Of a stretch of 64,000 nt of DNA, positions 933 through 60,446 are shown piece by piece (position 1 is the first letter of the stretch; each line of letters opens with the position of its first letter). Where the stretch lies: contig NZ_CP011492.1 of assembly GCF_001011035.1 (NCBI RefSeq), positions 6,379,447 through 6,443,446 on the forward strand, in the 5' to 3' direction. The DNA is from Streptomyces sp. CNQ-509. GTDB taxonomy: Bacteria; Actinomycetota; Actinomycetes; Streptomycetales; Streptomycetaceae. Position numbers and translations under genes: made by a program. The notes beneath the pieces were generated by a model that saw nothing but the letters and a program-made list of their open reading frames with translations, was not told the origin of the DNA and did not search any database.

Positions 933-2294
933 TCACGTTCCCGGCTCCGGGTCCGCGGGCGGCTCGGCCAGCTCGCCCAGCCGTACCGGCGACGCGATCG
1001 GGCGGCGCGCGAACGCCGCCGCGTCCGCCAGGCCCGTCAGGCAGGCGACGTTGGGGCCGCACACGCGGCCCTGGCACTGGCCGAGCCCCGCCCTGCTGAC
1101 CAGCTTCACGGCCCGGACCCCGAGCGCCTCGCGCTCCCGCACCGCGCGGCGCAGTTCGCCGTACGGGACCTCCTCGCAGCGGCACACCAGGGTGTCGTCG
1201 GCCAGCCAGGTGCGCCACCCGTCCGGCACCGGGTACGCCCGCGCCAGCGCGGCGGCGAACCCGCGTCCGGCCCGTACCCGGCGCAGCGCCGCCGCCGGGG
1301 GCGCCGGGCGGGCGCCGAGGAGCTTCGCGGCGGCGACGCCCGCGACCTCGCCCTCCGCGGCGGCGGGGCCGGCGCCGCCGACCCCCGTCAGCTCGCCCGC
1401 CGCGAACACCCCCGGCACCGAGGTGGCCTGCGCCGCGTCGACTGCGACGAACCCGCCGTCGAGCGCGCAGCCCGCGGCGAGGGCGGTCTCCACCTGCGGG
1501 ACGAACCCGAAGCCGACGCACACCGCGTCGGCCTCCACCCGCCGCTCGCTGCCCGGCACGATCTCCCAGCCGGAAGTGAGGCGCGCGGTGGTGACCGCCT
1601 CCACGCGGTCCGTGCCGTGCGCGGCGACGACGGCGGTGCGGCGCCGGTAGGGGATGCGGTGGCGGGCCAGGAGCGCGCCGTACCCGGCGAGTTCGCCGGA
1701 CTTGCGCCATCCGGCGACGGCGTCGGCGGGCCGGCGCAGCCAGGCCGTGACCGGCTCGGCGGCCTCCAGCACCCCGGCCACCCCGGCCCCGGCCGCCGTC
1801 AGCGACGCGGCGACCGGCAACAGGAAAGGACCGGTGCCCGCCACCAGGACCCGCTCGCCGACGCGCACGCCCTGCCCCTTCGCCAGCGCCTGCGCGGCGC
1901 CCGCGGTGTAGACGCCGGGCAGGTCCCAGCCGGGGAACGGCAGCGCCCTGTCGTACGCCCCGGTGGCCAGCACCAGCGCGCGGGTCGCCACGCTGCGCGC
2001 GGTACGGCCGGGGCCGTCGGCGGGGCCGGTGTGCAGGTGCACCCGGTGCCCGCCTTCCGGCACGGGCTCCAGCGCCCAGACGACGGTGTGCGGCAGATGC
2101 CCGACGCCGGGCGGCAGCGCGAACCGGTCGCGGCCCGCAAGGGAGTTCTGCCGGTGGTACTGGCCGCCGAGCGCCGCGCCGGAGTCCACGAGCAGGACGC
2201 GGACGCCGTGCCGGGCCGCGGCCCGGGCGGCGGCCATCCCGGCGGGGCCGCCGCCGATGACGACGACGGGCCCTTCCACCCGGGGCCCGCTCAC
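933..2294 (-). CDS. FAD/NAD(P)-binding oxidoreductase, D-hydroxyproline dehydrogenase alpha-type subunit
   Basis: A 453-residue flavoprotein. It opens with a Rossmann FAD motif (VVVIGGGPAG, residues 10-19) and has a second dinucleotide-binding region in the middle. Near the C-terminus it carries a BFD-like iron-sulfur motif with cysteines at about 371, 373, 407 and 412. This matches the subunit that passes electrons in heteromeric hydroxyproline/D-amino-acid dehydrogenases of the LhpB-LhpE-LhpF type. The GTG start overlaps the stop of the 2Fe-2S gene by four bases (GTGA); an earlier in-frame ATG would add 21 arginine-rich residues and is less likely. The product would oxidise cis-4-hydroxy-D-proline together with the two upstream-encoded subunits. 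Confidence 0.85.
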   Translation of the reverse strand: MSGPRVEGPVVVIGGGPAGMAAARAAARHGVRVLLVDSGAALGGQYHRQNSLAGRDRFALPPGVGHLPHTVVWALEPVPEGGHRVHLHTGPADGPGRTARSVATRALVLATGAYDRALPFPGWDLPGVYTAGAAQALAKGQGVRVGERVLVAGTGPFLLPVAASLTAAGAGVAGVLEAAEPVTAWLRRPADAVAGWRKSGELAGYGALLARHRIPYRRRTAVVAAHGTDRVEAVTTARLTSGWEIVPGSERRVEADAVCVGFGFVPQVETALAAGCALDGGFVAVDAAQATSVPGVFAAGELTGVGGAGPAAAEGEVAGVAAAKLLGARPAPPAAALRRVRAGRGFAAALARAYPVPDGWRTWLADDTLVCRCEEVPYGELRRAVREREALGVRAVKLVSRAGLGQCQGRVCGPNVACLTGLADAAAFARRPIASPVRLGELAEPPADPEPGT

Positions 2295-2680
2295 GCCGGC
2301 AGCTCCGCGCCGTCCTGGCTGCGGATGTCGTCGCCGTCGCGGACGAGGCGCTGGCATGCGCGGACGTCGGCGGCCCCGTTGACGACCACGAGGCAGTCGT
2401 GGCAGACGCCGATGCCGCAGAAGACGCCGCGCGGCCGGCCGCCGCCGCGGGTCGTGCGCCAGGACACCCGGCCGAGCGCCAGCAGCAGCCCGGCGACGGT
2501 CCGCCCCGCCTCGGTGACGAGTTCCTCCCCGTCGACCCGCACGCTCAACGGGTCCCCGCCCCGTCCCGCCGGGGCCGCGCCCGGACGCCGCTCACCGGCC
2601 CCCGCCGCACGGTCCGGCAACGGTCCTCCCGCACCGGCCCCGCCGCCGCGCCACGCCCGCCCCCGCCTACGCCGGTTCAT
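2291..2680 (-). CDS. (2Fe-2S)-binding subunit of the hydroxyproline dehydrogenase
   Basis: A small ferredoxin-like protein of 129 residues. The 2Fe-2S ligands are visible as C88, C93 and C96 (FCGIGVCHDC) with a fourth at C109. Residues 1-42 are Arg/Gly/Pro-rich and unlike the usual compact ~90-residue family member, so the true start may lie downstream, though I see no better start with a ribosome site. The gene overlaps the end of the upstream amine oxidase by 14 bases and the following FAD oxidoreductase by four. This is the gamma subunit of the three-gene dehydrogenase. Confidence 0.82.
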   Translation of the reverse strand: MNRRRRGRAWRGGGAGAGGPLPDRAAGAGERRPGAAPAGRGGDPLSVRVDGEELVTEAGRTVAGLLLALGRVSWRTTRGGGRPRGVFCGIGVCHDCLVVVNGAADVRACQRLVRDGDDIRSQDGAELPA

Positions 2681-3863
2681 CCGCCGCCTCCGCCTCCGCC
2701 ATGACTCCCGGCCGGTCCACCCGGAACGGCTCCGCGGGCACCTCGGGTGCCCGCCCCGTGAACAGGTCCGCCAGCAACTTCCCGGTGCCCGCCGCCAGCC
2801 CGATGCCCGCGCCCTCGTGGCCCGTGGCGTGCCAGAGCCCGGGGCGCCGCGGGTCCTCGCCGATCACCGGCAGGTGGTCGGGGACGTACGGCCGGAAGCC
2901 GCCGTACGCGCGGATCACCGGGACTCCGGCGAGCACGGGGAACAGCCCGGCCGCCTTGCGCGCCAGCTCGCGCAGCACCGCCACCCGCACCGTCTCGTCG
3001 AAGCCGGCCCGCTCCCGGCTGGAGCCGACGAGCACCGTCCCGGCACGTGTGGCCTCCACGACGGTCGACGTCTGCAGCGCCGCGGTGCCGCCGGCGACCG
3101 CGCCGACGTAGTCGGCGTCGTAGACCTTGTGGCGCACCGTGCCCGCCGGCACCGCGGCGGTGACGAGGACGAGACCGCGCCGCGGCAGTACCGCGACCGG
3201 CGCCCCCGCCGCCGCGGCGAACCGGCCGGCCCACGGGCCGCAGGCGTTGACGACCGCGCCGCACGGCACCGTGCCCCGGTCGGTGCGCACGCCGGTGACG
3301 GCGCCCCCGGCTCCGGTCTCGACCCCGCGCGCGGTGACACCGGCGCGCACCCGCCCGCCCCGCTCCCGTACCGCCGCCAGCAGCGCGGTCGTCGCGAGCA
3401 CCGGCTGCAACTGGCCGTCCTGCGGGTAGTGGACGGCCGCCGTGACGTCCACGGTGAGGTGCGGCTCCAGCGCCCCGGCCTCCGCGGGGGTCACCGGCTC
3501 CGCCCGGACGCCCGCGGTGCGCTGGGCCGCGGCGAAGTCCGCGAGCGCGCTCGCCGCCGCGGGCGCGGTGGCGACGACGAGGCCGCCCTTGGCCTCCCAC
3601 TCCGCCTCCGCGCGGCGCGGACCGAGCAGGTCGCGCAGTTCCGCGAGCAGAGGGGGCCAGCGGCGGCGGGAGCACTGGGCGAGGGCCAGTTCGGGTCCCG
3701 GCGCCTTGTCGGAGACCAGGACGTTGCCCTCACCCGCGGCGGTGGTGCCGCTCGCGGGGGCGCCGCGGTCGAGCACGGCCACCGAGAGCCCGGCGGCGGT
3801 CAGCGCCTCGGCGCAGGCCGCGCCGATCACGCCGGCGCCCACGACCACGACGTCGTACGCCAC
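2667..3863 (-). CDS. FAD-dependent amine oxidase (DadA/DAO-like), hydroxyproline dehydrogenase beta-type subunit
   Basis: A 398-residue FAD oxidase of the D-amino-acid oxidase/glycine oxidase fold. The N-terminal dinucleotide motif VVVVGAGVIG covers residues 5-14, and a C-terminal HATGHEGAGIGLAAGTG stretch is typical of the family's FAD contact. It is the likely catalytic subunit oxidising cis-4-hydroxy-D-proline to pyrroline-4-hydroxy-2-carboxylate, with electrons passed to the iron-sulfur partners. I chose the GTG at 3863 because GGAGG lies nine bases upstream; an in-frame upstream ATG would read through that site. It is first in a tightly overlapping operon, and a candidate operator lies immediately upstream. 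Confidence 0.85.
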   Translation of the reverse strand: MAYDVVVVGAGVIGAACAEALTAAGLSVAVLDRGAPASGTTAAGEGNVLVSDKAPGPELALAQCSRRRWPPLLAELRDLLGPRRAEAEWEAKGGLVVATAPAAASALADFAAAQRTAGVRAEPVTPAEAGALEPHLTVDVTAAVHYPQDGQLQPVLATTALLAAVRERGGRVRAGVTARGVETGAGGAVTGVRTDRGTVPCGAVVNACGPWAGRFAAAAGAPVAVLPRRGLVLVTAAVPAGTVRHKVYDADYVGAVAGGTAALQTSTVVEATRAGTVLVGSSRERAGFDETVRVAVLRELARKAAGLFPVLAGVPVIRAYGGFRPYVPDHLPVIGEDPRRPGLWHATGHEGAGIGLAAGTGKLLADLFTGRAPEVPAEPFRVDRPGVMAEAEAADEPA

Positions 3864-6012: not shown

Positions 6013-6693
6013 TCAGCGGCGGCCCGCCACGAACGGGCGGAGCCGGTCGGCGAGCGCTTCGCTCGTCACCAACTGGAAGTCCGTGGCCGGATACAGGGCC
6101 GAGTCGGGGCACGTCTGCTGCGGGCTCGTCGTGCCGTCCAGGGCGAACTTCGTCACCGGCTCGCCGGTGGCGGCCTCGAAGACCCGGAAGACGTAGCGCG
6201 CGCTCTGCACGTCGACCACGCCGTCGCCCGTGTTGTGCGAGCCGCCGAGATAGGTGCAGGTGCCCACGGTGCGGCTGTCGTGGCTGTCGTCGTCGTACTG
6301 GCAGACCACGAGCTGGGTGTCGGTGTTCGCGAAGTCCGGCGTCCAGTCGCCCGGAAGCTGGGGCGGCTCGCTCTCGTCGACGGCGATGTCGTCCTTGAAG
6401 AGCACGGCCGGATGCGGCCCGGGGCCCTCGTATGCGGGCCCGCCGGGAAGGTACGGCTTCACCTTGCCGGCCTCGAACGGCCCGGTGAAGTCGCAGGCGT
6501 CCTCGCTGCTCGCCACCGTCTGCCGCGCCGGCGGCGGCGTACGCGGCAGCGGGTCGGGGGAAGCGGTCGGGTCCGCCTCCTTCCGCCCCTTCGCGTCACC
6601 GCCGTCATCGCCCCCGGTGCAGGCCGCGGTCCCCGCCAGCCCGGCGACCGCGGCCAGCACGAGCCCGGCCACGCCCCGTCGCGCACGTCCCAC
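6013..6693 (-). CDS. Putative lipoprotein, unknown function
   Basis: A 226-residue exported protein. The N-terminus has basic residues, a hydrophobic stretch (GLVLAAVAGLAG) and a plausible lipobox ending TAAC, followed by a Gly/Asp-rich linker typical of surface lipoproteins. The mature part has several cysteines (ACDFTG, LVVCQYDD, GTCTYLGG, QQTCPDS) that could form disulfides. I do not recognise the family; Streptomyces carry many such DUF3558-like lipoproteins. The GTG at 6693 is preferred for GGGAGGAG upstream; an ATG at 6726 would add 11 residues. Convergent with the amidase. Confidence 0.72.
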   Translation of the reverse strand: MGRARRGVAGLVLAAVAGLAGTAACTGGDDGGDAKGRKEADPTASPDPLPRTPPPARQTVASSEDACDFTGPFEAGKVKPYLPGGPAYEGPGPHPAVLFKDDIAVDESEPPQLPGDWTPDFANTDTQLVVCQYDDDSHDSRTVGTCTYLGGSHNTGDGVVDVQSARYVFRVFEAATGEPVTKFALDGTTSPQQTCPDSALYPATDFQLVTSEALADRLRPFVAGRR

Positions 6694-6878
6694 GATGCCG
6701 CTCCTCCCGCCACGATCCGCCCGCACGATAATGCCCCGGGCCCGGGACGGGTCCCCCCGTCACGAGGTGATTCGCGCGCACCTGCCGCCAAGGTCGACTA
6801 CGGCGGCTCTCCAGGTGGTTGGGTAGGGGTCGAGCAGTGCCGGGGGGACGTGTGCTCCGGTGCGGAAGGAGGAGTGCC

Positions 6879-9194
6879 GTGGAGCCGCTGGCGGCTGGGG
6901 ATCCCGCCCGGGTGGGCGACTTCGTGCTACGCGGCCGGCTGGGCGCGGGCGGCATGGGGGAGGTGTTCCTCGGCCGGTCGCCCGGCGGGCGGGCCGCGGC
7001 GGTGAAGGTGGTGCACGCCCACCTGGCGCGGCAGCCCGAGTTCCGCGGCCGGTTCCGGCGGGAGGTGGCCGCCGCGCGGTCGGTCAGCGGCGCGTACACC
7101 GCGCCCGTGATGGCCGCGGGCCCGGAGGACGATCCGCCGTGGATCGCCACGCTCTACGTCCCCGGCCCCTCCCTGGCCGAAGCCGTGCGCGCGGCCGGGC
7201 CGTTCCCCGAGGACGCGGTGTGGCCGCTGGCCGCCGGGCTGGTCGAGGCGCTCCAGGCCATCCACGCCGAAGGGCTGCTCCACCGCGACCTCACGCCGTC
7301 GAACGTGCTGCTGGCCGCGGACGGCCCGCGGGTCATCGACTTCGGGATCTCCCGGGCCGTGGACGGCACCGTGCTCACCGGGACGGGCGCGACCATCGGC
7401 ACGCCGGGCTTCATGTGCCCGGAGCAGGCCCAGGACGGCGAAGTCCGCCAGCCGGGGGACGTCTTCTCCTTCGGCGCCGTACTGGCCTACGCCGCCGGCG
7501 GCGTCGAGCCGTTCGGGCACGGCGCGCCGCTGGGCGTGCTGCACCGCGTGGTGACGGCGGAACCGCACCTGGACGAGGTGCCCGAGCGGATACGTACCCT
7601 CGCCGCGGCGTGCCTGGCCAAGAACCCGGACGACCGGCCCACCCCCGCCGAACTCCTCGGCCTCATCGCCGCGGAGTGGGACCCGGGCGACGATTTCTCC
7701 GCCGCGGCGCCGTGGCCCGAGGCCGTGCACACCCTCATCGAGGCCCGCGCCGTACCCGGTACGGCGCGGGCCACCGAACCCGACGGCGCCCCGCCGCCCC
7801 CGCATGCCGCGCCCACGGCCACCGCGCCCCCGCGGTACACCCCGACGGAGCCGGGGCAGCCGCAGGAGCCGGAGCCGGAAGCCCCGCCCGCCCCCGCCGC
7901 CTCCGGCCGCGTACCGAAGGAGGACCGCCCCCGCGCGCTGCGGCGCCGCCACCGGCAGGCGCTCAAGCTCACCAGGTCGGGCCGGTACGAGGAAGCCGAA
8001 CGGCAGCTCGCCGCACTCGTCGCGGACCGGACCCGCGTGCTGGGACCCGACCATCCCGACGTGCAGTTCACCCGCCAGCACCAGGCCCGGGCGCTCGCGG
8101 AGACGGGCCGGTACGCGGAGGCCGAGCGGCTGCTGGCCGACGTCCTGCCGCGCATTCTGCGGCTGCGGGGGCCCGATCACCGGGACACGCTTCTCACCCG
8201 CCGGCACCACGCGGAAGCGCTCGGGAACGCGGGCCGGCCGGGGGAAGCCGTGCCCCTGCTCGCCGACCTCGTCGCCGACATGGTGCGCCTGCGCGGCCCC
8301 GACCACCCCGACACGCTGCTCACCCGCCATCTGCACGCCTGCAACCTCGCGGACACGGGGGACTACGCGCAGGCGGCGCGCCTCTTCGCCGACCTCCTCG
8401 ACGACCGGATCCGCGTGCACGGCCGCAACCACGAGAAGACCCTGGTCGCCCGCATGCTCCACGCCCACTACGTCGGATCGGCGGGGGAGTACGCGGAAGG
8501 CGCCCGCCTGATGAGCGAACTCATCCCCGACCTCTCCCGGGTGCGGGGGCCCGACCATGCCGAGACCCTGGCCGCCCGCGGCAGCAGGGCCCGCCATCTC
8601 GGGGAGGCCGGGGAGCACGCGGAGGCCGTGCGTGCGTACGCGGAACTGGCCGCCGACGCCGGTCGCGTCCTGGGTCCTGACCACGACGACACCCTGAGCG
8701 CGCGCGAGCGCCACGCTACTTATCTCGGCGCGGCGGGGGAGCACGTGGAGGCCGCCCGGCTGCACGCCGGACTGGCCGCCGACCACGCGCGCCTCCTGGG
8801 CCCCGACCACCGCGACACCCTGCTCGCCCGCCACCTCAGCGCGTGGGAGCTGGGAGAGGCGGGCGAATACGCCGAGGCGGCGCGGTTGATGGACGAGGTC
8901 GCGGCCGACTGGGAGCGCGTCATGGGGCCCGACTGCAAGGACACCATGAACGCGCGCTATTTCCACGCCCGTTACGTCGGCGGGGCGGGGGACCATGCCG
9001 AGGCGGCCCGGCTGCTGGCCGAGGTCGCGGCCGACTGGGCGCGCGTCGAGGGCCCCGGCAACCCGGAAGCCCTCTGCGTCCGCGAGTGGCAGGCGTTCCA
9101 CCTCGACGAGGCGGGGGAGCACGACGAGGCCGAGCGCCTGCGGGCCGAAGTCGCCGCCCACCGCACCGCCACCGAGGGAGAACCGGCGGTCTGA
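6879..9194 (+). CDS. Soluble Ser/Thr protein kinase fused to tetratricopeptide repeats
   Basis: A 771-residue fusion. Residues about 15-275 form an Hanks-type kinase: glycine loop GAGGMGEV (22-29), VAIK-type lysine AAVK (K43), catalytic loop HRDLTPSN, DFGIS, and GTPGFMCPEQ in the activation segment. A Pro/Ala/Glu-rich linker (about 290-350) leads into at least nine ~42-residue TPRs of the kinesin-light-chain type, recognised by the recurring GPDHxDTLxxR motif, to the C-terminus. There is no transmembrane helix or PASTA domain, so it should be cytoplasmic, with the TPR array choosing partners or substrates. GTG start with GAAGGAGGA upstream. Nothing adjacent suggests its target. Confidence 0.88.
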   Translation: MEPLAAGDPARVGDFVLRGRLGAGGMGEVFLGRSPGGRAAAVKVVHAHLARQPEFRGRFRREVAAARSVSGAYTAPVMAAGPEDDPPWIATLYVPGPSLAEAVRAAGPFPEDAVWPLAAGLVEALQAIHAEGLLHRDLTPSNVLLAADGPRVIDFGISRAVDGTVLTGTGATIGTPGFMCPEQAQDGEVRQPGDVFSFGAVLAYAAGGVEPFGHGAPLGVLHRVVTAEPHLDEVPERIRTLAAACLAKNPDDRPTPAELLGLIAAEWDPGDDFSAAAPWPEAVHTLIEARAVPGTARATEPDGAPPPPHAAPTATAPPRYTPTEPGQPQEPEPEAPPAPAASGRVPKEDRPRALRRRHRQALKLTRSGRYEEAERQLAALVADRTRVLGPDHPDVQFTRQHQARALAETGRYAEAERLLADVLPRILRLRGPDHRDTLLTRRHHAEALGNAGRPGEAVPLLADLVADMVRLRGPDHPDTLLTRHLHACNLADTGDYAQAARLFADLLDDRIRVHGRNHEKTLVARMLHAHYVGSAGEYAEGARLMSELIPDLSRVRGPDHAETLAARGSRARHLGEAGEHAEAVRAYAELAADAGRVLGPDHDDTLSARERHATYLGAAGEHVEAARLHAGLAADHARLLGPDHRDTLLARHLSAWELGEAGEYAEAARLMDEVAADWERVMGPDCKDTMNARYFHARYVGGAGDHAEAARLLAEVAADWARVEGPGNPEALCVREWQAFHLDEAGEHDEAERLRAEVAAHRTATEGEPAV

Positions 9195-54706: not shown

Positions 54707-55054
54707 ATGAGCGACGACGTGCAGGCACTGCAGAAGCGGCTCGTGGCGTTCGCCGCGGCGCGGGACTGGGAGCAGTACCACACCCCCAAGAACCTGGCCG
54801 CGGCGCTGAGCGTGGAGGCCGCGGAGCTGGTGGAGGTCTTCCAGTGGCTGACGCCCGAGGAGTCCGCGCGGATCATGGCGGATCCGGACGCGGCGCACCG
54901 GGTGGCGGACGAGGTCGCGGACGTGCTGTCGTACCTGCTGCAGTTCTGCTCGGTGGTGGGGGTGGACCCGCTGGCGGCGCTGGCGGCGAAGATCGAGCGC
55001 AACGAGGAGCGGTTCCCGGCGCCGCGGGACCCGGAGCCGGGGGAGGGGCGTTGA
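54707..55054 (+). CDS. MazG-like nucleotide pyrophosphohydrolase (RS21-C6 type)
   Basis: A 115-residue all-alpha NTP pyrophosphatase. The metal-binding motif is visible as EAAELVEVFQW (Glu ladder) and ADEVADVLSYLLQFC, the ExxE and ExxD pairs of MazG-type enzymes. It would hydrolyse non-canonical dNTPs such as modified dCTP to the monophosphate. ATG start. Its stop overlaps the TTG start of the homocysteine methyltransferase (TTGA), so the two are coupled although no pathway links them. Confidence 0.85.
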   Translation: MSDDVQALQKRLVAFAAARDWEQYHTPKNLAAALSVEAAELVEVFQWLTPEESARIMADPDAAHRVADEVADVLSYLLQFCSVVGVDPLAALAAKIERNEERFPAPRDPEPGEGR

Positions 55055-55989
55055 GACCCGCGTCGTCGTTCGCGGACGCGGTCGGGCGCGCCGCGTCCTG
55101 CGGTCCGCCGCTGGTGCTGGACGGGGGTCTGTCGAACCAGCTCGAAGCGCAGGGCTGCGATCTTCGCGACGCGCTGTGGTCGGCCCGGGTGCTCGCGGAG
55201 GAGCCGGCGCAGATCGAGGCCGCGCACGCCGCGTACGTACGGGCCGGGGCGGACGTGCTGCTGACGGCGAGCTACCAGGCGACGTTCGAGGGCTTCGCGC
55301 GCCGGGGCGCCGGCCGGGCGGAGGCGGCCGGGCTGCTGGCGGGCAGCGTGGCGCTGGCCCGGCGGGTGGCGGACGAGGCGCCCCGGCCGGTGTGGGTGGC
55401 GGCGTCGGCGGGCCCGTACGGGGCGATGCTGGCGGACGGTTCGGAGTACCACGGCCGGTACGGGGACGGGATGGGCGTCGCGGAGCTGGAGCGCTTCCAC
55501 CGGCCCCGGCTGGAGGTGCTGGCGGCGGCGGAGCCGGACGTGCTGGCGCTGGAGACGGTCCCGGGCGTGACGGAGGCGACGGCGCTGCTGCGCGCGGCGG
55601 CGGGTCTGGGCGTACCGGTGTGGCTGACGTACACGGTCGCGGGCGGGGCGACCCGGGCGGGCGAGCCGCTGGCAGACGCCTTCGCGCTCGCGGCGGACGA
55701 CGAGGCGGTGGCGGCGGTGGGGGTCAACTGCTGCGCGCCGGAGGACGTCGCGTACGCGGTGGAGACGGCGGCGCGCGTCACGGGCAGACCGGTGCTGGCG
55801 TACCCCAACAGCGGCGAGACCTGGAACGCGGAGACGCATGCCTGGCGCGGCCCCGGCTCGTTCGACGCCCAGGCCGCGGCCGGCTGGCGGCGCGCGGGGG
55901 CCGCCGCCGTGGGCGGCTGCTGCCGCGTCGGCCCGCAGGCGATCGCCGCCCTGGCGGCGGAACTCCACGGGAGCGGCACGCCCGGGTGA
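55051..55989 (+). CDS. mmuM: Homocysteine S-methyltransferase
   Basis: A 312-residue zinc enzyme that would transfer a methyl group from S-methylmethionine or similar donor to homocysteine, giving methionine. Zinc ligands are seen in VGVNCCAPEDV (about 230) and GGCCRVGP (about 295); the N-terminal DGGLSNQLEAQG and the ASYQATFEGF motif are family hallmarks. TTG start overlapping the upstream stop, with GGGAGGGGCG before it. Its stop codon is the first element of the 19-bp repeat array that follows. Confidence 0.9.
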   Translation: MRPASSFADAVGRAASCGPPLVLDGGLSNQLEAQGCDLRDALWSARVLAEEPAQIEAAHAAYVRAGADVLLTASYQATFEGFARRGAGRAEAAGLLAGSVALARRVADEAPRPVWVAASAGPYGAMLADGSEYHGRYGDGMGVAELERFHRPRLEVLAAAEPDVLALETVPGVTEATALLRAAAGLGVPVWLTYTVAGGATRAGEPLADAFALAADDEAVAAVGVNCCAPEDVAYAVETAARVTGRPVLAYPNSGETWNAETHAWRGPGSFDAQAAAGWRRAGAAAVGGCCRVGPQAIAALAAELHGSGTPG

Positions 55990-56197
55990 GCACTGCTCCC
56001 GTGGGTGAGCACCGCTCCGCGCGGTGAGCGGCCGACGCCTCGGTGACCACCGCTCCCGACCGCGAGCACCGCTCTGCGCCGAGAACACCGACCGCCGCCG
56101 GAGAGCGCCGCTCTCGCGTGCGGCCGCCGCTCTCCTGCGAGACCACCGCTCCCGGCCGCGAGCGCCGACCCGTACCAAGAGCACCGCTCTCGCGCCC
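55988..56197. repeat. Eleven-unit 19-bp palindromic repeat array before the hen1-pnkp operon
   Basis: Units begin at 55988, 56007, 56026, 56045, 56064, 56083, 56103, 56122, 56141, 56160 and 56179: spacing 19 bp throughout except one step of 20. Each begins with a version of GAGCACCGCTC, a GAGC-N3-GCTC palindrome; units 1, 2, 5, 7 and 11 keep both arms and units 4 and 9 differ by one base (GACC). The other eight bases vary, so the site core appears selected. The first unit overlaps the mmuM stop. Confidence 0.85.
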
Positions 56198-56256
56198 CCC
56201 GCCCCCGCCCGAAACCCGATGGCCCGCGCCCCGCCCCGCACGAAATACTCGCTCAC

Positions 56257-57783
56257 GTGTTCTTCACCATCACCGCGACCGGCACCGACGCCGCGCCCGC
56301 CACCGACCTCGGCTTCCTCCTGCACAAGCACCCCGGCAAGGCGCAGGAGTTCGCCACTGCACGCGGCACGGCCCACGTCTTCTACCCCGAGGCGACTCCC
56401 GCCCGCTGCACCGCCGCGCTGCTCCTCGAAGTGGACCCCGTCGGCCTCGTGCGCGCCGCGAAGGGCAAGGACAGGGGCGGCAAGGGCAAGAGCCCCGACT
56501 CCGCCCTCGCGCAGTACGTCAACGACCGGCCGTACGCGGCGTCCTCCCTCCTCGCCGTCGCGCTCGGCCGCGTCTTCCGCACCGCCATGACCGGCACCAG
56601 CCGCACCCACCCCGAGCGCGCCGCCCAGCCCCTCCCGCTGCGCATCGAGGTCCCCGCCGTCCCCGCCCGCGGCGGCCCCGAACTGGTCGCCCGGCTCTTC
56701 GCGCCCATGGGCTGGCGGGTCACCGCCGACGCCGTGCCGCTGGACCCCGCGTTCCCCGAGTGGGGCGACTCGCGGTACGTGTCCCTCGTCCTCGACGGCG
56801 AGGTGCGGCTCGCCGACGCGCTGCGCCACCTGTACGTCCTGCTGCCGGTGCTCGACGACGCCAAGCACTACGGCGTCGCCCCCGACGAGGTCGACAAGCT
56901 GCTGCGCGCCGGGGAGGGCTGGCTGGAGGACCACCCCGAGCAGCGCCTCATCACCGGCCGGTACCTCTCCCGCCGCTGGTCGCTGGCGCGCGAGGCGCTG
57001 GAGCGGCTGGAGCTGGCCCGCCTCGCCGAGTCCGACGACGCCGAGCCCGAGGAGCTGGACAACGCCGTGGACGAGGCGACCGACACCGAGGAGAAGCCGG
57101 TGCCGCTCGCGGTGCAGCGCCGCGCCGCCATCGCCGAGGCGCTGCGCGCCGCGGGCGCGGCCCGGGTGCTCGACCTCGGCTGCGGCCAGGGCCAGTTGGT
57201 CAAGGAGCTGCTGAACGACCCGCGGTTCACCGAGATCGTCGGCGTCGACGTGTCCGTACGCGCCCTCGCCGCCGCCGCCCGCCGGCTGCGGCTGGAGCGC
57301 ATGGGCGAGCGGCAGGCCGCGCGCGTGTCGCTGCTGCAGAGCGCGCTCACGTACACCGACCGCAGGCTCGCGGGCTATGACGCCGCCGTGCTGAGCGAGG
57401 TCGTGGAGCACGTCGACCCGCCGCGGCTGCCCGCCCTGGAGTACGCCGTGTTCGGCTCCGCCCGGCCCGCGACGGTGGTCGTGACGACGCCCAACTCCGA
57501 GTACAACGTGCGCTGGGAGTCGCTGCCCGCCGGCCACGTCCGGCACGCGGACCACCGCTTCGAGTGGACCCGGGCGGAGTTCCGCGCCTGGGCGGAACCG
57601 GTCGCGGCCAGGTTCGGCTACGCGGTGGCGTACGAGGGCGTGGGCCAGGACGACCCGGAGGTCGGCCACCCGACCCAGCTCGCGGTCTTCACCAGGACCG
57701 CCGCCCGCAGCGGCACCGAACCGGCCACCGGCACCACCACCGGGACGACCGGCCCCGACCACACCCCGAAGGAGGCGTCATGA
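56257..57783 (+). CDS. hen1: Bacterial Hen1: 3'-terminal RNA ribose 2'-O-methyltransferase
   Basis: A 508-residue RNA-repair enzyme. The N-terminal half (about 1-245) is the Hen1-N domain that works with Pnkp in ligation. The C-terminal SAM methyltransferase (about 285-480) has SAM motif ARVLDLGCGQGQL and the metal-site motif SEVVEHVDPPRL (Glu-Glu-His, with a further His downstream), used for 2'-O-methylation of the repaired 3' end so it resists re-cleavage. GTG start; AATACT (56244-56249) eight bases before it could be a -10, making the message leaderless. Its stop overlaps the pnkp ATG. Confidence 0.93.
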   Translation: MFFTITATGTDAAPATDLGFLLHKHPGKAQEFATARGTAHVFYPEATPARCTAALLLEVDPVGLVRAAKGKDRGGKGKSPDSALAQYVNDRPYAASSLLAVALGRVFRTAMTGTSRTHPERAAQPLPLRIEVPAVPARGGPELVARLFAPMGWRVTADAVPLDPAFPEWGDSRYVSLVLDGEVRLADALRHLYVLLPVLDDAKHYGVAPDEVDKLLRAGEGWLEDHPEQRLITGRYLSRRWSLAREALERLELARLAESDDAEPEELDNAVDEATDTEEKPVPLAVQRRAAIAEALRAAGAARVLDLGCGQGQLVKELLNDPRFTEIVGVDVSVRALAAAARRLRLERMGERQAARVSLLQSALTYTDRRLAGYDAAVLSEVVEHVDPPRLPALEYAVFGSARPATVVVTTPNSEYNVRWESLPAGHVRHADHRFEWTRAEFRAWAEPVAARFGYAVAYEGVGQDDPEVGHPTQLAVFTRTAARSGTEPATGTTTGTTGPDHTPKEAS

Positions 57784-60446
57784 GCGACACCACCCCGGCA
57801 CCCGGCACCGCCGCCCGCCGCCTCGGCGTCCCCGACCTCTGTCTCGTCGTCCTCATCGGCACCACGGGCTCCGGCAAGTCCACCTTCGCCCGCCGGCACT
57901 TCAAGCCGACCGAGGTCCTCTCCTCCGACTTCTGCCGCGGCCTCGTCGCCGACGACGAGAACGACCAGTCCGCCTCCGGCGACGCCTTCGACGTCCTCCA
58001 CTACATCGCCGGCAAGCGCCTCGCCGCGGGCCGGCTCACCGTCGTCGACGCCACCAGCGTCCAGCCCGAGGCCCGCCGTCAGCTCGTCCGGCTCGCCCGC
58101 GAGCACGACGTGCTGCCCGTCGCGATCGTCCTCGACGTCCCCGAGAGCGTCTGCCGCGAGCGCAACGCCGCCCGCCCCGACCGCGCCGGCATGGGCGCCC
58201 ACGTCATCCCGCGGCAGCGCCGCGAGCTGCGCCGCGGTCTGCGCGGGCTGCAGCGCGAGGGCTTCCGCACCGTGCACCACCTGCGCGGCACGGACGAGAT
58301 CGACGCCGCCCAGGTCGTGCTGGAGCGCCGCTACAACGATCTGGCCCACCTCACGGGACCGTTCGACCTCATCGGCGACGTGCACGGCTGCGCCCGCGAG
58401 CTGGAGACGCTGCTGACGAGTCTCGGGTACGAGGACGGGGTGCACCCCGCGGGCCGTACGGCGGTCTTCGTCGGCGACCTCGTCGACCGCGGCCCGGACA
58501 GCCCCGGTGTGCTGCGCCGCGTCATGGGCATGGTCGCCGCGGGCAGCGCGCTGTGCGTGCCCGGCAACCACGAGAACAAGCTGGGCCGCCTCCTGCACGG
58601 CCGCAACGTCAAGCTGACGCACGGCCTCGCCGAGACCGTCGAGCAGCTGGAGCGGGCGGAGGAGGCGGAGCCCGGGTTCCGCGAGCGGGTGCGGACGTTC
58701 GTCGACGGGCTCGTCAGCCACTACGTCCTCGACGGCGGCCGGCTCGTCGTCAGCCACGCCGGCCTGCCGGAGAAGTACCACGGCCGCACCTCCGGCCGGG
58801 TGCGCTCCTTCGCGCTGTACGGGGACACGACGGGCGAGACCGACGAGTACGGGCTGCCGGTGCGCTACCCGTGGGCCGAGGAGTACCGCGGGCGTGCCGC
58901 CGTCGTCTACGGCCACACCCCGACGCCGGAGGCGTCGTGGATCAACAACACCCTCTGCCTGGACACCGGCTGCGTCTTCGGCGGCAAGCTGACCGCGCTG
59001 CGCTGGCCGGAGCGCGAGCTGGTCGACGTCCCGGCCGAGCGCGTCTGGTACGAGCCGGTCAAGCCCCTCGCGGCCGGCGCCGCCGGTACGGACTCCGCAC
59101 CGGCGGGTACGGCGGGCGACCGCCCGCTGGACCTCGCCGACGTGCAGGGCCGCCGCGTCGTCGAGACCGGCCAGCACGGCCGCGTCGCCGTACGGGAGGA
59201 GAACGCGGCGGCGGCTCTGGAGGTCATGAGCCGCTTCGCGGTCGACCCGCGGCTGCTGCTCTACCTGCCGCCGACGATGGCGCCGACCGCCACCTCCGCC
59301 GAGGAGGGGCATCTGGAGCACCCGGCGGAGGCGTTCGCGGCGTACCGCGCGGACGGCGTGGCGCGGGTGGTGTGCGAGGAGAAGCACATGGGATCGCGCG
59401 CCGTGGCGCTGGTGTGCCGGGACGCGGGCGTCGCGGAGAAGCGCTTCGGCCTGCCGCCGGGCGCGGGCGTGACGGGCGCGCTGCACACGCGCACGGGCCG
59501 CCCGTTCTTCCCGGACGCCGAGCGCACCGAGCAGGTGGTCGCCCGCGTCCGCGACGCGGCGACGGCGGCCGGGCTGTGGGAGGAGCTGGGGACGGACTGG
59601 CTGCTGCTCGACGCCGAGCTGCTGCCGTGGTCGCTGAAGGCGGGCGGGCTGCTGCGGCAGCAGTACGCCGCGGTGGGCGCGGCCTCGCGGGCGGTGTTCC
59701 CGGGTGCGCTGGCGGCGCTGGAGGCGACGCGCACGCGCCTGGCGGCCGCCGCGCCCGCGGTACCGCCGGCCGCGGGCACCGACCCCGCAACCGCCTCGGA
59801 CTCCGGCCCTGTCACCGCGCTCGCCGCCCTCCTCGACCGCCAGCGCGAGCGGGCCGCCGACGCCGAGTCGTTCTCGGCCGCGTACCGCCGCTACTGCTGG
59901 CCGGTCGACGGGCTCGACGGCGTGCGCCTGGCCCCGTTCCAGCTCCTCGCCACCGAGGGCCGGAGCCTGGCGGGCGAGCCGCACGACGTGCAGCTCGCCC
60001 TCCTCGACCGGCTGGTGGCGCAGGACGACACCGGCCTGCTCCAGCGCACCGGTCGGCTGTACGTCGACACCGGCGACGACGCGTCGGTGGCCGCGGGCGT
60101 GGCCTGGTGGCAGGAGATGACGGCGGCCGGCGGCGAGGGCATGGTCGTCAAGCCGCTCCAGGCGCTCGTACGGAGCGGGGAGGGCCGGCTCGTCCAGCCC
60201 GGCGTCAAGTGCCGCGGCCGGGAGTACCTGCGGATCATCTACGGCCCGGAGTACACCCGGCCGGAGAACCTGACCCGGCTGCGCAGCCGCTACCTGGGGC
60301 ACAAGCGCTCCCTGGCGCTGCGCGAGTACGCGCTCGGCCTCGAAGCGCTGGACCGGCTGGCGGCGGGGGAGCCGCTGTGGCGGGTGCACGAGGCGGTGTT
60401 CGCGGTGCTGGCACTGGAGTCGGAGCCGGTGGACCCGCGGCTGTGA
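57780..60446 (+). CDS. pnkp: Pnkp: polynucleotide kinase-phosphatase-ligase of the RNA repair system
   Basis: An 888-residue trifunctional enzyme. 5'-kinase (about 20-180): Walker A IGTTGSGKST. Phosphatase (about 190-450): DLIGDVHGC, GDLVDRGPDSP, PGNHENK and SHAG, a binuclear metallophosphoesterase. Ligase/adenylyltransferase (about 480-880): lysine motif EKHMGSRA (K about 535) and VVKPL. It heals and seals RNA breaks left by ribotoxins, together with Hen1. ATG overlaps the hen1 stop (ATGA) and GAAGGAGG is the ribosome site. A strong hairpin ends the operon. Confidence 0.95.
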   Translation: MSDTTPAPGTAARRLGVPDLCLVVLIGTTGSGKSTFARRHFKPTEVLSSDFCRGLVADDENDQSASGDAFDVLHYIAGKRLAAGRLTVVDATSVQPEARRQLVRLAREHDVLPVAIVLDVPESVCRERNAARPDRAGMGAHVIPRQRRELRRGLRGLQREGFRTVHHLRGTDEIDAAQVVLERRYNDLAHLTGPFDLIGDVHGCARELETLLTSLGYEDGVHPAGRTAVFVGDLVDRGPDSPGVLRRVMGMVAAGSALCVPGNHENKLGRLLHGRNVKLTHGLAETVEQLERAEEAEPGFRERVRTFVDGLVSHYVLDGGRLVVSHAGLPEKYHGRTSGRVRSFALYGDTTGETDEYGLPVRYPWAEEYRGRAAVVYGHTPTPEASWINNTLCLDTGCVFGGKLTALRWPERELVDVPAERVWYEPVKPLAAGAAGTDSAPAGTAGDRPLDLADVQGRRVVETGQHGRVAVREENAAAALEVMSRFAVDPRLLLYLPPTMAPTATSAEEGHLEHPAEAFAAYRADGVARVVCEEKHMGSRAVALVCRDAGVAEKRFGLPPGAGVTGALHTRTGRPFFPDAERTEQVVARVRDAATAAGLWEELGTDWLLLDAELLPWSLKAGGLLRQQYAAVGAASRAVFPGALAALEATRTRLAAAAPAVPPAAGTDPATASDSGPVTALAALLDRQRERAADAESFSAAYRRYCWPVDGLDGVRLAPFQLLATEGRSLAGEPHDVQLALLDRLVAQDDTGLLQRTGRLYVDTGDDASVAAGVAWWQEMTAAGGEGMVVKPLQALVRSGEGRLVQPGVKCRGREYLRIIYGPEYTRPENLTRLRSRYLGHKRSLALREYALGLEALDRLAAGEPLWRVHEAVFAVLALESEPVDPRL

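Follow-up and report, generated by a model that had tools for sequence, protein, structure and literature searches.

REP/BIME and MIRU-type repeats are short, interspersed, and intergenic. The arrays that we describe here resemble them in being short repeats scattered between genes, but their unit matches sites upstream of a particular tetR gene. In this they are like the autoregulatory operators of the TetR family (TetR_C_33 group), where a two-fold symmetric site lies by a tetR gene whose divergent neighbor encodes an enzyme. Unlike those operators, the sites here are tiled at 19-bp or, less often, 15-bp steps, and arrays are also found outside promoters. If the arrays bind TetR, they would be natural operator arrays of variable length, which to our knowledge are otherwise familiar mainly from engineered constructs. 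Excerpts of a study of BldC in Streptomyces (PMC5859096) describe a MerR-like protein that binds direct repeats. Several copies of one protein on a series of sites would be a point in common, but the present units have two-fold symmetry and show linkage to a TetR gene. Similarly, decoy sites engineered in Escherichia coli, as outlined in excerpts of PMC7826281, are extra binding sites able to titrate a regulator, which the present sites putatively are as well. Those decoys are synthetic, whereas the present arrays are natural, chromosomal, and variable in length. Among the matches listed in a search of open-license PMC papers, in the parts of their text that the search returned, none dealt with these arrays or with the control of hen1-pnkp in Streptomyces. 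A dispersed kind of operator array, of which we found no description in that literature, is likely.

The array that we started from lies in the window (the whole stretch of DNA analyzed, 64,000 nucleotides of the Streptomyces sp. CNQ-509 genome), directly before the hen1-pnkp RNA-repair operon. Gene coordinates are those of a custom gene caller, with approximate start codons. The features of the locus are as follows:

55114 to 55989, plus strand: homocysteine S-methyltransferase gene (PF02574, E 1.1e-69; start approximate).
55971 to 55981, no strand: weak twelfth unit that keeps 6 of the 8 core positions; it precedes unit one by 17 bp and falls within the end of the upstream gene.
55988 to 56197, no strand: 11-unit array with a step of 19 bp (20 bp once); the symmetric site has the core GAGCRSYGCTC and the extended form GR-GAGC-RSY-GCTC-YC.
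56211 to 56256, plus strand: putative hen1 promoter block, GAAA ... AATACT (AATACT at 56244 to 56249), ending at the GTG and leaderless-like; compared by eye.
56257 to 57783, plus strand: hen1, 3'-terminal RNA ribose 2'-O-methyltransferase (TIGR04074, 1.4e-204; PF12623).
57780 to 60446, plus strand: pnkp, polynucleotide kinase-phosphatase with a ligase domain (TIGR04075, 1359 bits; PF16542).

The first unit starts at the second base of the methyltransferase stop codon (55987 to 55989), and 59 bp separate the end of the array from the hen1 GTG. Unit starts are at 55988, 56007, 56026, 56045, 56064, 56083, 56103, 56122, 56141, 56160, and 56179; the step is 19 bp in nine cases and 20 bp in one. 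GAGC-N3-GCTC is exact in 5 of the 11 units, carries one mismatch in 2, and carries two or three mismatches in 4. Over the whole window, the motif with up to one mismatch was observed 53 times against 75.7 expected and is thus not overrepresented. The phased-chain score of the array is 36, while the best of 40 third-order Markov copies of the window scored 6.5 and bases 1 to 55900 of the real window scored 4.0. It is therefore the phased clustering, as opposed to the frequency of the motif, that is beyond chance, and the eleven units first reported by a sequence-only reading of this DNA are borne out. The same reading had placed all sites on one face of the DNA, which is wrong by arithmetic: 19 bp is about 1.8 turns of B-DNA, so neighboring sites are rotated by roughly 65 to 70 degrees. 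CRISPR arrays have repeats of roughly 24 to 40 bp and spacers of similar length; with a core of 11 to 15 bp, a spacer of 4 to 8 bp, and a 19-bp step, the present array is not one of them.

A BLAST search with the hen1 array against its own genome returned further arrays. Exact double sites are present at 5 places (control pattern, 0), and double sites with up to two mismatches gave 27 matches compared with 6 for the reversed control. We interpret these as seven array places, near 1689183, 3762519, 3768579, 3771044, 3959318, 6435434 (hen1), and 7627400; the array at 3768579 falls within an open reading frame for an ABC transporter. Five other matches are single and do not exceed the control level. 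Across 392 Streptomyces genomes, exact doubles were present in 136 (control, 3), and 164 had a three-unit match when up to three mismatches were allowed (reversed control, 1). A scan of 84,980 species yielded 96 stretches (L076 to L171). We looked at the matched units of 80 of these; judged by eye, most of those in which the spacers vary come from actinobacteria (Streptomyces, Actinokineospora, Amycolatopsis, Yinghuangia, and Plantactinospora). The nonactinobacterial stretches are mostly uniform tandem repeats, many with an 18-bp step, and were not used. No exact three-unit match was found in viral contigs.

Abutting sites, 15 bp apart, were found as well. The longest array (L112, 6409 to 7678) has about 60 phased positions; within chains of at least three, 33 of these positions reach a score of 9 or higher out of 11. 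By eye, the site centers of this array are mostly G in the left half and C in the right half, like two facing opposite polarities. When we sorted 56 array regions by context, 20 overlapped a called gene (five of these are tetR loci) and 6 had a called gene on one side only. The others lay between divergent genes (13 regions: 11 tetR loci and one orthologous pair), tandem genes (12), or convergent genes (5). The placement of arrays outside tetR loci is unlike that of ordinary operators.

Many arrays in Streptomyces, Actinokineospora, and Plantactinospora adjoin a TetR gene, usually divergent from a gene for a deazaflavin/F420-dependent reductase (PF04075, TIGR00026). The TetR protein has the domains TetR_N and TetR_C_33, and among proteins of solved structure it is closest in sequence to Rv1816 (5d1r) and SCO4313 (2oi8). 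The linkage is the same in Actinokineospora and Plantactinospora, where the proteins are 49 to 55% identical to the Streptomyces query. Where a TetR-like helix was in reach of a fetched array, it was SSA[LVI]YRY at 33 loci (32 distinct places, since L190 and L226 are one), 118 to 202 nt from the nearest site, and a different helix at 1 locus.

To avoid circularity, we picked loci by their match to the TetR protein and ignored the array. A match at E 1e-20 or better is present in 364 of the 392 genomes. All of the 30 best-matched loci have 4 to 9 sites in the 260 bp upstream (23.7 sites per kb versus 3.2 in the remainder of these loci). All of 20 further tetR loci, from genomes without a three-unit match, have 3 to 6 sites in the 280 bp upstream (14.6 versus 2.3 per kb), and 19 of these 20 have at least two sites in phase. 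Overall, at least three upstream sites were present at 50 of 50 tetR loci, which are among the closest homologs of the query (E up to about 1e-103). Phased upstream sites were also found at six of six additional homolog loci, some of them more distant. In the paralog control, eight related loci had a single upstream site among them (0.5 per kb). Sites at every one of the 50 tetR loci, set against paralogs that have none or nearly none, argue that the unit is the operator of that TetR; the position in the tetR promoter, the two-fold symmetry, and the specificity to one TetR over its paralogs are those of a TetR operator. We conclude, from comparison of sequences, that the unit is a predicted operator of this TetR and that the arrays would be amplified copies of it. 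We infer that the basic state consists of a few sites at the tetR promoter, with the dispersed arrays being secondary.

The distribution across genomes points the same way. Three-unit arrays are present in 151 of 274 genomes with a close TetR homolog and in 13 of 118 without one (Fisher p 1.7e-17, phylogeny ignored), at a cutoff of 1e-65 that was set after seeing the data and with 7 candidates scored per genome. At 1e-50, the counts are 151 of 286 versus 13 of 106 (p 4e-14). A three-unit match is missing in 123 of the 274 genomes with a close homolog. Of the 13 array genomes without one, two (G022 and G026) have their sites in conserved coding sequence, and two others (G074 and G103) are assemblies that are 82% and 78% complete.

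We propose the following explanation. The repressor would be a TetR_N plus TetR_C_33 protein with the helix SSA[LVI]YRY[FY], whose gene is usually divergent from the reductase gene. In the basic state, three to nine sites would lie in the divergent promoter, where both genes are presumably under repression by TetR dimers. In many Streptomyces, and in Actinokineospora and Amycolatopsis, the operator is also present in tandem at other places, mostly between tandem or convergent genes, and the hen1 array would be one such dispersed array. In relatives that keep the TetR, dimers may sit side by side on the array, which would then act mainly as a decoy or local roadblock and not as a dedicated hen1 switch. 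We consider it probable, taken as a whole, that the unit is a TetR operator and that the hen1 array is a dispersed copy, orphaned in this genome and mainly a decoy or roadblock where the TetR is kept. The sites, how they are dispersed, their linkage to tetR, the deletion, and the varying copy number are visible in the sequences; binding, repression, and the decoy effect are what we infer. For the dispersed arrays in general, we lean toward operator copies with mainly a decoy function or none, and a satellite-like spread would fit too. At hen1, the array is probably a leftover or a decoy and not a switch of the operon. This replaces a guess about one operon with a hypothesis about a whole family, testable on one purified protein.

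The genome of the window has lost this tetR. A deletion of about 1.1 kb took the tetR, its operators, and the 5' two-thirds of the divergent F420-reductase gene. When the tetR locus of S. aculeolatus (L269) was compared with this genome, L269 positions 1 to 1005, 1046 to 1086, and 2220 to 3677 matched, while positions 1006 to 1045 and 1087 to 2219 were missing; the latter segment holds the operators and the whole tetR. The matching blocks, 521138 to 522135 and 519588 to 521017, flank a short gap. Of the reductase gene, about 160 bp from its 3' part are left, and roughly 80 bases without a match take the place of the remainder of that gene, the operators, and all of tetR. A TetR profile search of this genome, with all 147 candidates scored, found no close member (best E 1.2e-10), compared with E 2.0e-89 to 6.8e-92 for the close TetR of G129, G071, and S. 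aculeolatus. The three TetR_C_33 matches in this genome belong to other proteins, which lack arrays. For S. phytophilus the search gave only a paralog, in an assembly (same contigs as G074) that is 82% complete. The deletion would leave the hen1 array an orphan, most likely without its cognate protein; it and the other six arrays are probably orphaned in this strain unless another protein reads them.

A more far-reaching version, which we regard as quite unlikely, is that scattered tandem arrays of up to about 60 phased positions, copied from the operator of one TetR regulator, form a natural repressor sponge in Actinobacteria. Changes in their length would tune the free repressor or build local nucleoprotein stretches, and the present genome would be a natural knockout in which the sponge outlived the repressor. 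If the arrays bind TetR, close relatives with and without the repressor, having 0 to 19 units at the same spot, amount to a natural experiment on titration by decoy sites.

We compared the hen1 locus in four close relatives, whose hen1 genes are 93 to 95% identical. The array has 7 units in G129, 13 in G071, 19 in S. phytophilus, and 0 in S. aculeolatus, compared with 11 and a weak twelfth in the window. In S. aculeolatus, the promoter-like block follows almost directly after the methyltransferase stop codon and is intact without the array. In the hen1 tree of the close relatives, the node that decides between gain of the array and its loss in S. aculeolatus has a support of 0.093. The array is thus hypervariable and dispensable for the layout of the locus.

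Such variability is also what a neutral or selfish minisatellite would produce, with units copied by slippage or recombination and alike only through an origin in the tetR promoter. Of the rival explanations this is the most plausible, though we think it unlikely. Near-identical neighboring units in the G071 array fit it, as do the 20 tetR-bearing genomes that have no three-unit array. Against it stands the anatomy of the site. From 80 chains with 707 units (some chains overlap, so the units are partly nonindependent) at 67 loci, we derived the consensus G-R-GAGC-RSY-GCTC-Y-C with about four free bases between sites, two-fold symmetric and suited to a dimer. The loci were picked by eye as actinobacterial and mostly heterogeneous; uniform arrays (L096 and L138, for instance) were excluded. 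Consensus is 61 to 81% at the eight core positions but close to background at the four free spacer positions, a difference not expected from copying and drift, which should erode core and spacer equally. This counterevidence is weakened because the units were found by matching the core, which inflates its conservation, and because some of the chains overlap.

The core of the arrays does not clearly decay after loss of the tetR, which would be expected if another regulator bound them in this genome. In three of four like-for-like arrays, conservation of the core is lower here than in a close relative. For the hen1 array, the core positions kept of 8 are 6.83 against 6.86, 7.15, and 7.21 (small numbers), and pooled core sets, which are not like for like, gave 7.03 against 6.76. 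A candidate regulator is an ABATE/CGNR protein encoded beside an array. That array lies between the gene for the CGNR zinc-finger/ABATE regulator and an MFS transporter gene (L065, 1446 to 1530; L081, 6318 to 6385), in the window's genome as well as in S. aculeolatus. The proposal draws on this one pair of loci, however, and we consider it improbable.

It is very improbable that the array acts as RNA, with a series of short hairpins in the 3' region of the methyltransferase mRNA serving as a terminator or stabilizing the transcript. A stem of 4 bp and a loop of 3 nt are possible for each core, and several dispersed arrays follow stop codons. If pairing were under selection, compensatory double changes should be in excess, but complementary double mutants at the four core pairs numbered 6, 27, 11, and 7 against 5.9, 27.2, 10.6, and 6.8 expected (622 units). 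For one core pair, both sides were intact in 343 cases against 320.9 expected (shuffle p 0.0035; another pair, p 0.04), a slight excess that a site kept or lost whole would also produce. Rfam, searched over 55000 to 58000 at E up to 1, had nothing at the array and a single subthreshold match at 57836 to 57897. At the tetR locus, moreover, the sites lie upstream of both divergent genes. Since compensatory changes in the arms are missing, what is conserved seems to be a symmetric double-stranded DNA site and not a hairpin, and we set aside an RNA or cruciform function. Taken with the two-fold symmetry and the position upstream of one TetR family gene in 50 of 50 cases, this supports the interpretation of the units as probable protein-binding sites, which had been the starting suggestion.

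That suggestion had gone further and made the array the control element of hen1-pnkp, an operator through which a cooperative protein would control RNA repair. The array does lie just upstream of the promoter-like block, and when we looked for it before hen1 in related genomes it was present in three of the four close relatives. However, it was absent from S. aculeolatus, where the block is intact, and from all of the 29 other, more distant Streptomyces loci fetched (no two phased sites within 500 bp). The hen1 locus of G312 has no array either. Conservation upstream of hen1 as expected of a dedicated regulatory element was therefore not found. The unit number runs from 0 to 19, kindred arrays lie beside or inside unrelated genes, and the gene for the likely binder is deleted in this genome, so that we give this proposal little credence. 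A palindromic array before hen1 should not be taken as an RNA-repair control element. The block at 56211 to 56256 is itself likely the leaderless promoter of the operon. By eye, all four close relatives and about a dozen of the 29 distant loci have blocks of this kind ahead of hen1, whether the array is present or absent; in the distant loci they read like GAAAATGCCTGGTCGG ... CATACTCGGACACGTG directly before the GTG.

Several arrays recur at particular genes. Three lie within 9 kb around a cytochrome bd operon (contig C1 of the window's genome, 3762519 to 3771073; L034, L040, and L039): one before cydA (PF01654), one inside the ABC transporter frame, and one where the next gene, sensor-kinase-like, ends. 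S. aculeolatus (L163) has two of the three at the same places. Together with the F420/quinone-reductase partner of tetR, these arrays hint at a respiratory regulon. Arrays also recur across Streptomyces species within an oxidoreductase gene (Gfo/Idh/MocA-like by eye) and within or ahead of an Rsm22 gene (PF09243). L120 has arrays at 3342 to 3465, 6689 to 6833, and 7291 to 7339, and L132, L184, L192, L193, and L194 are similar. Double sites of types B and C, in XdhC-like and kinase-like genes (names by eye), are common to several species and look like conserved coding sequence, so we rejected them. The oxidoreductase gene (type D) and the Rsm22 region (three arrays in L120) are less easily dismissed as coding conservation. 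Two Bacillus records (L103 and L130) contain long arrays of GAGCGATGCTC or GAGCATCGCTC units at 20-bp steps, up to 37 per chain, which are probably unrelated.
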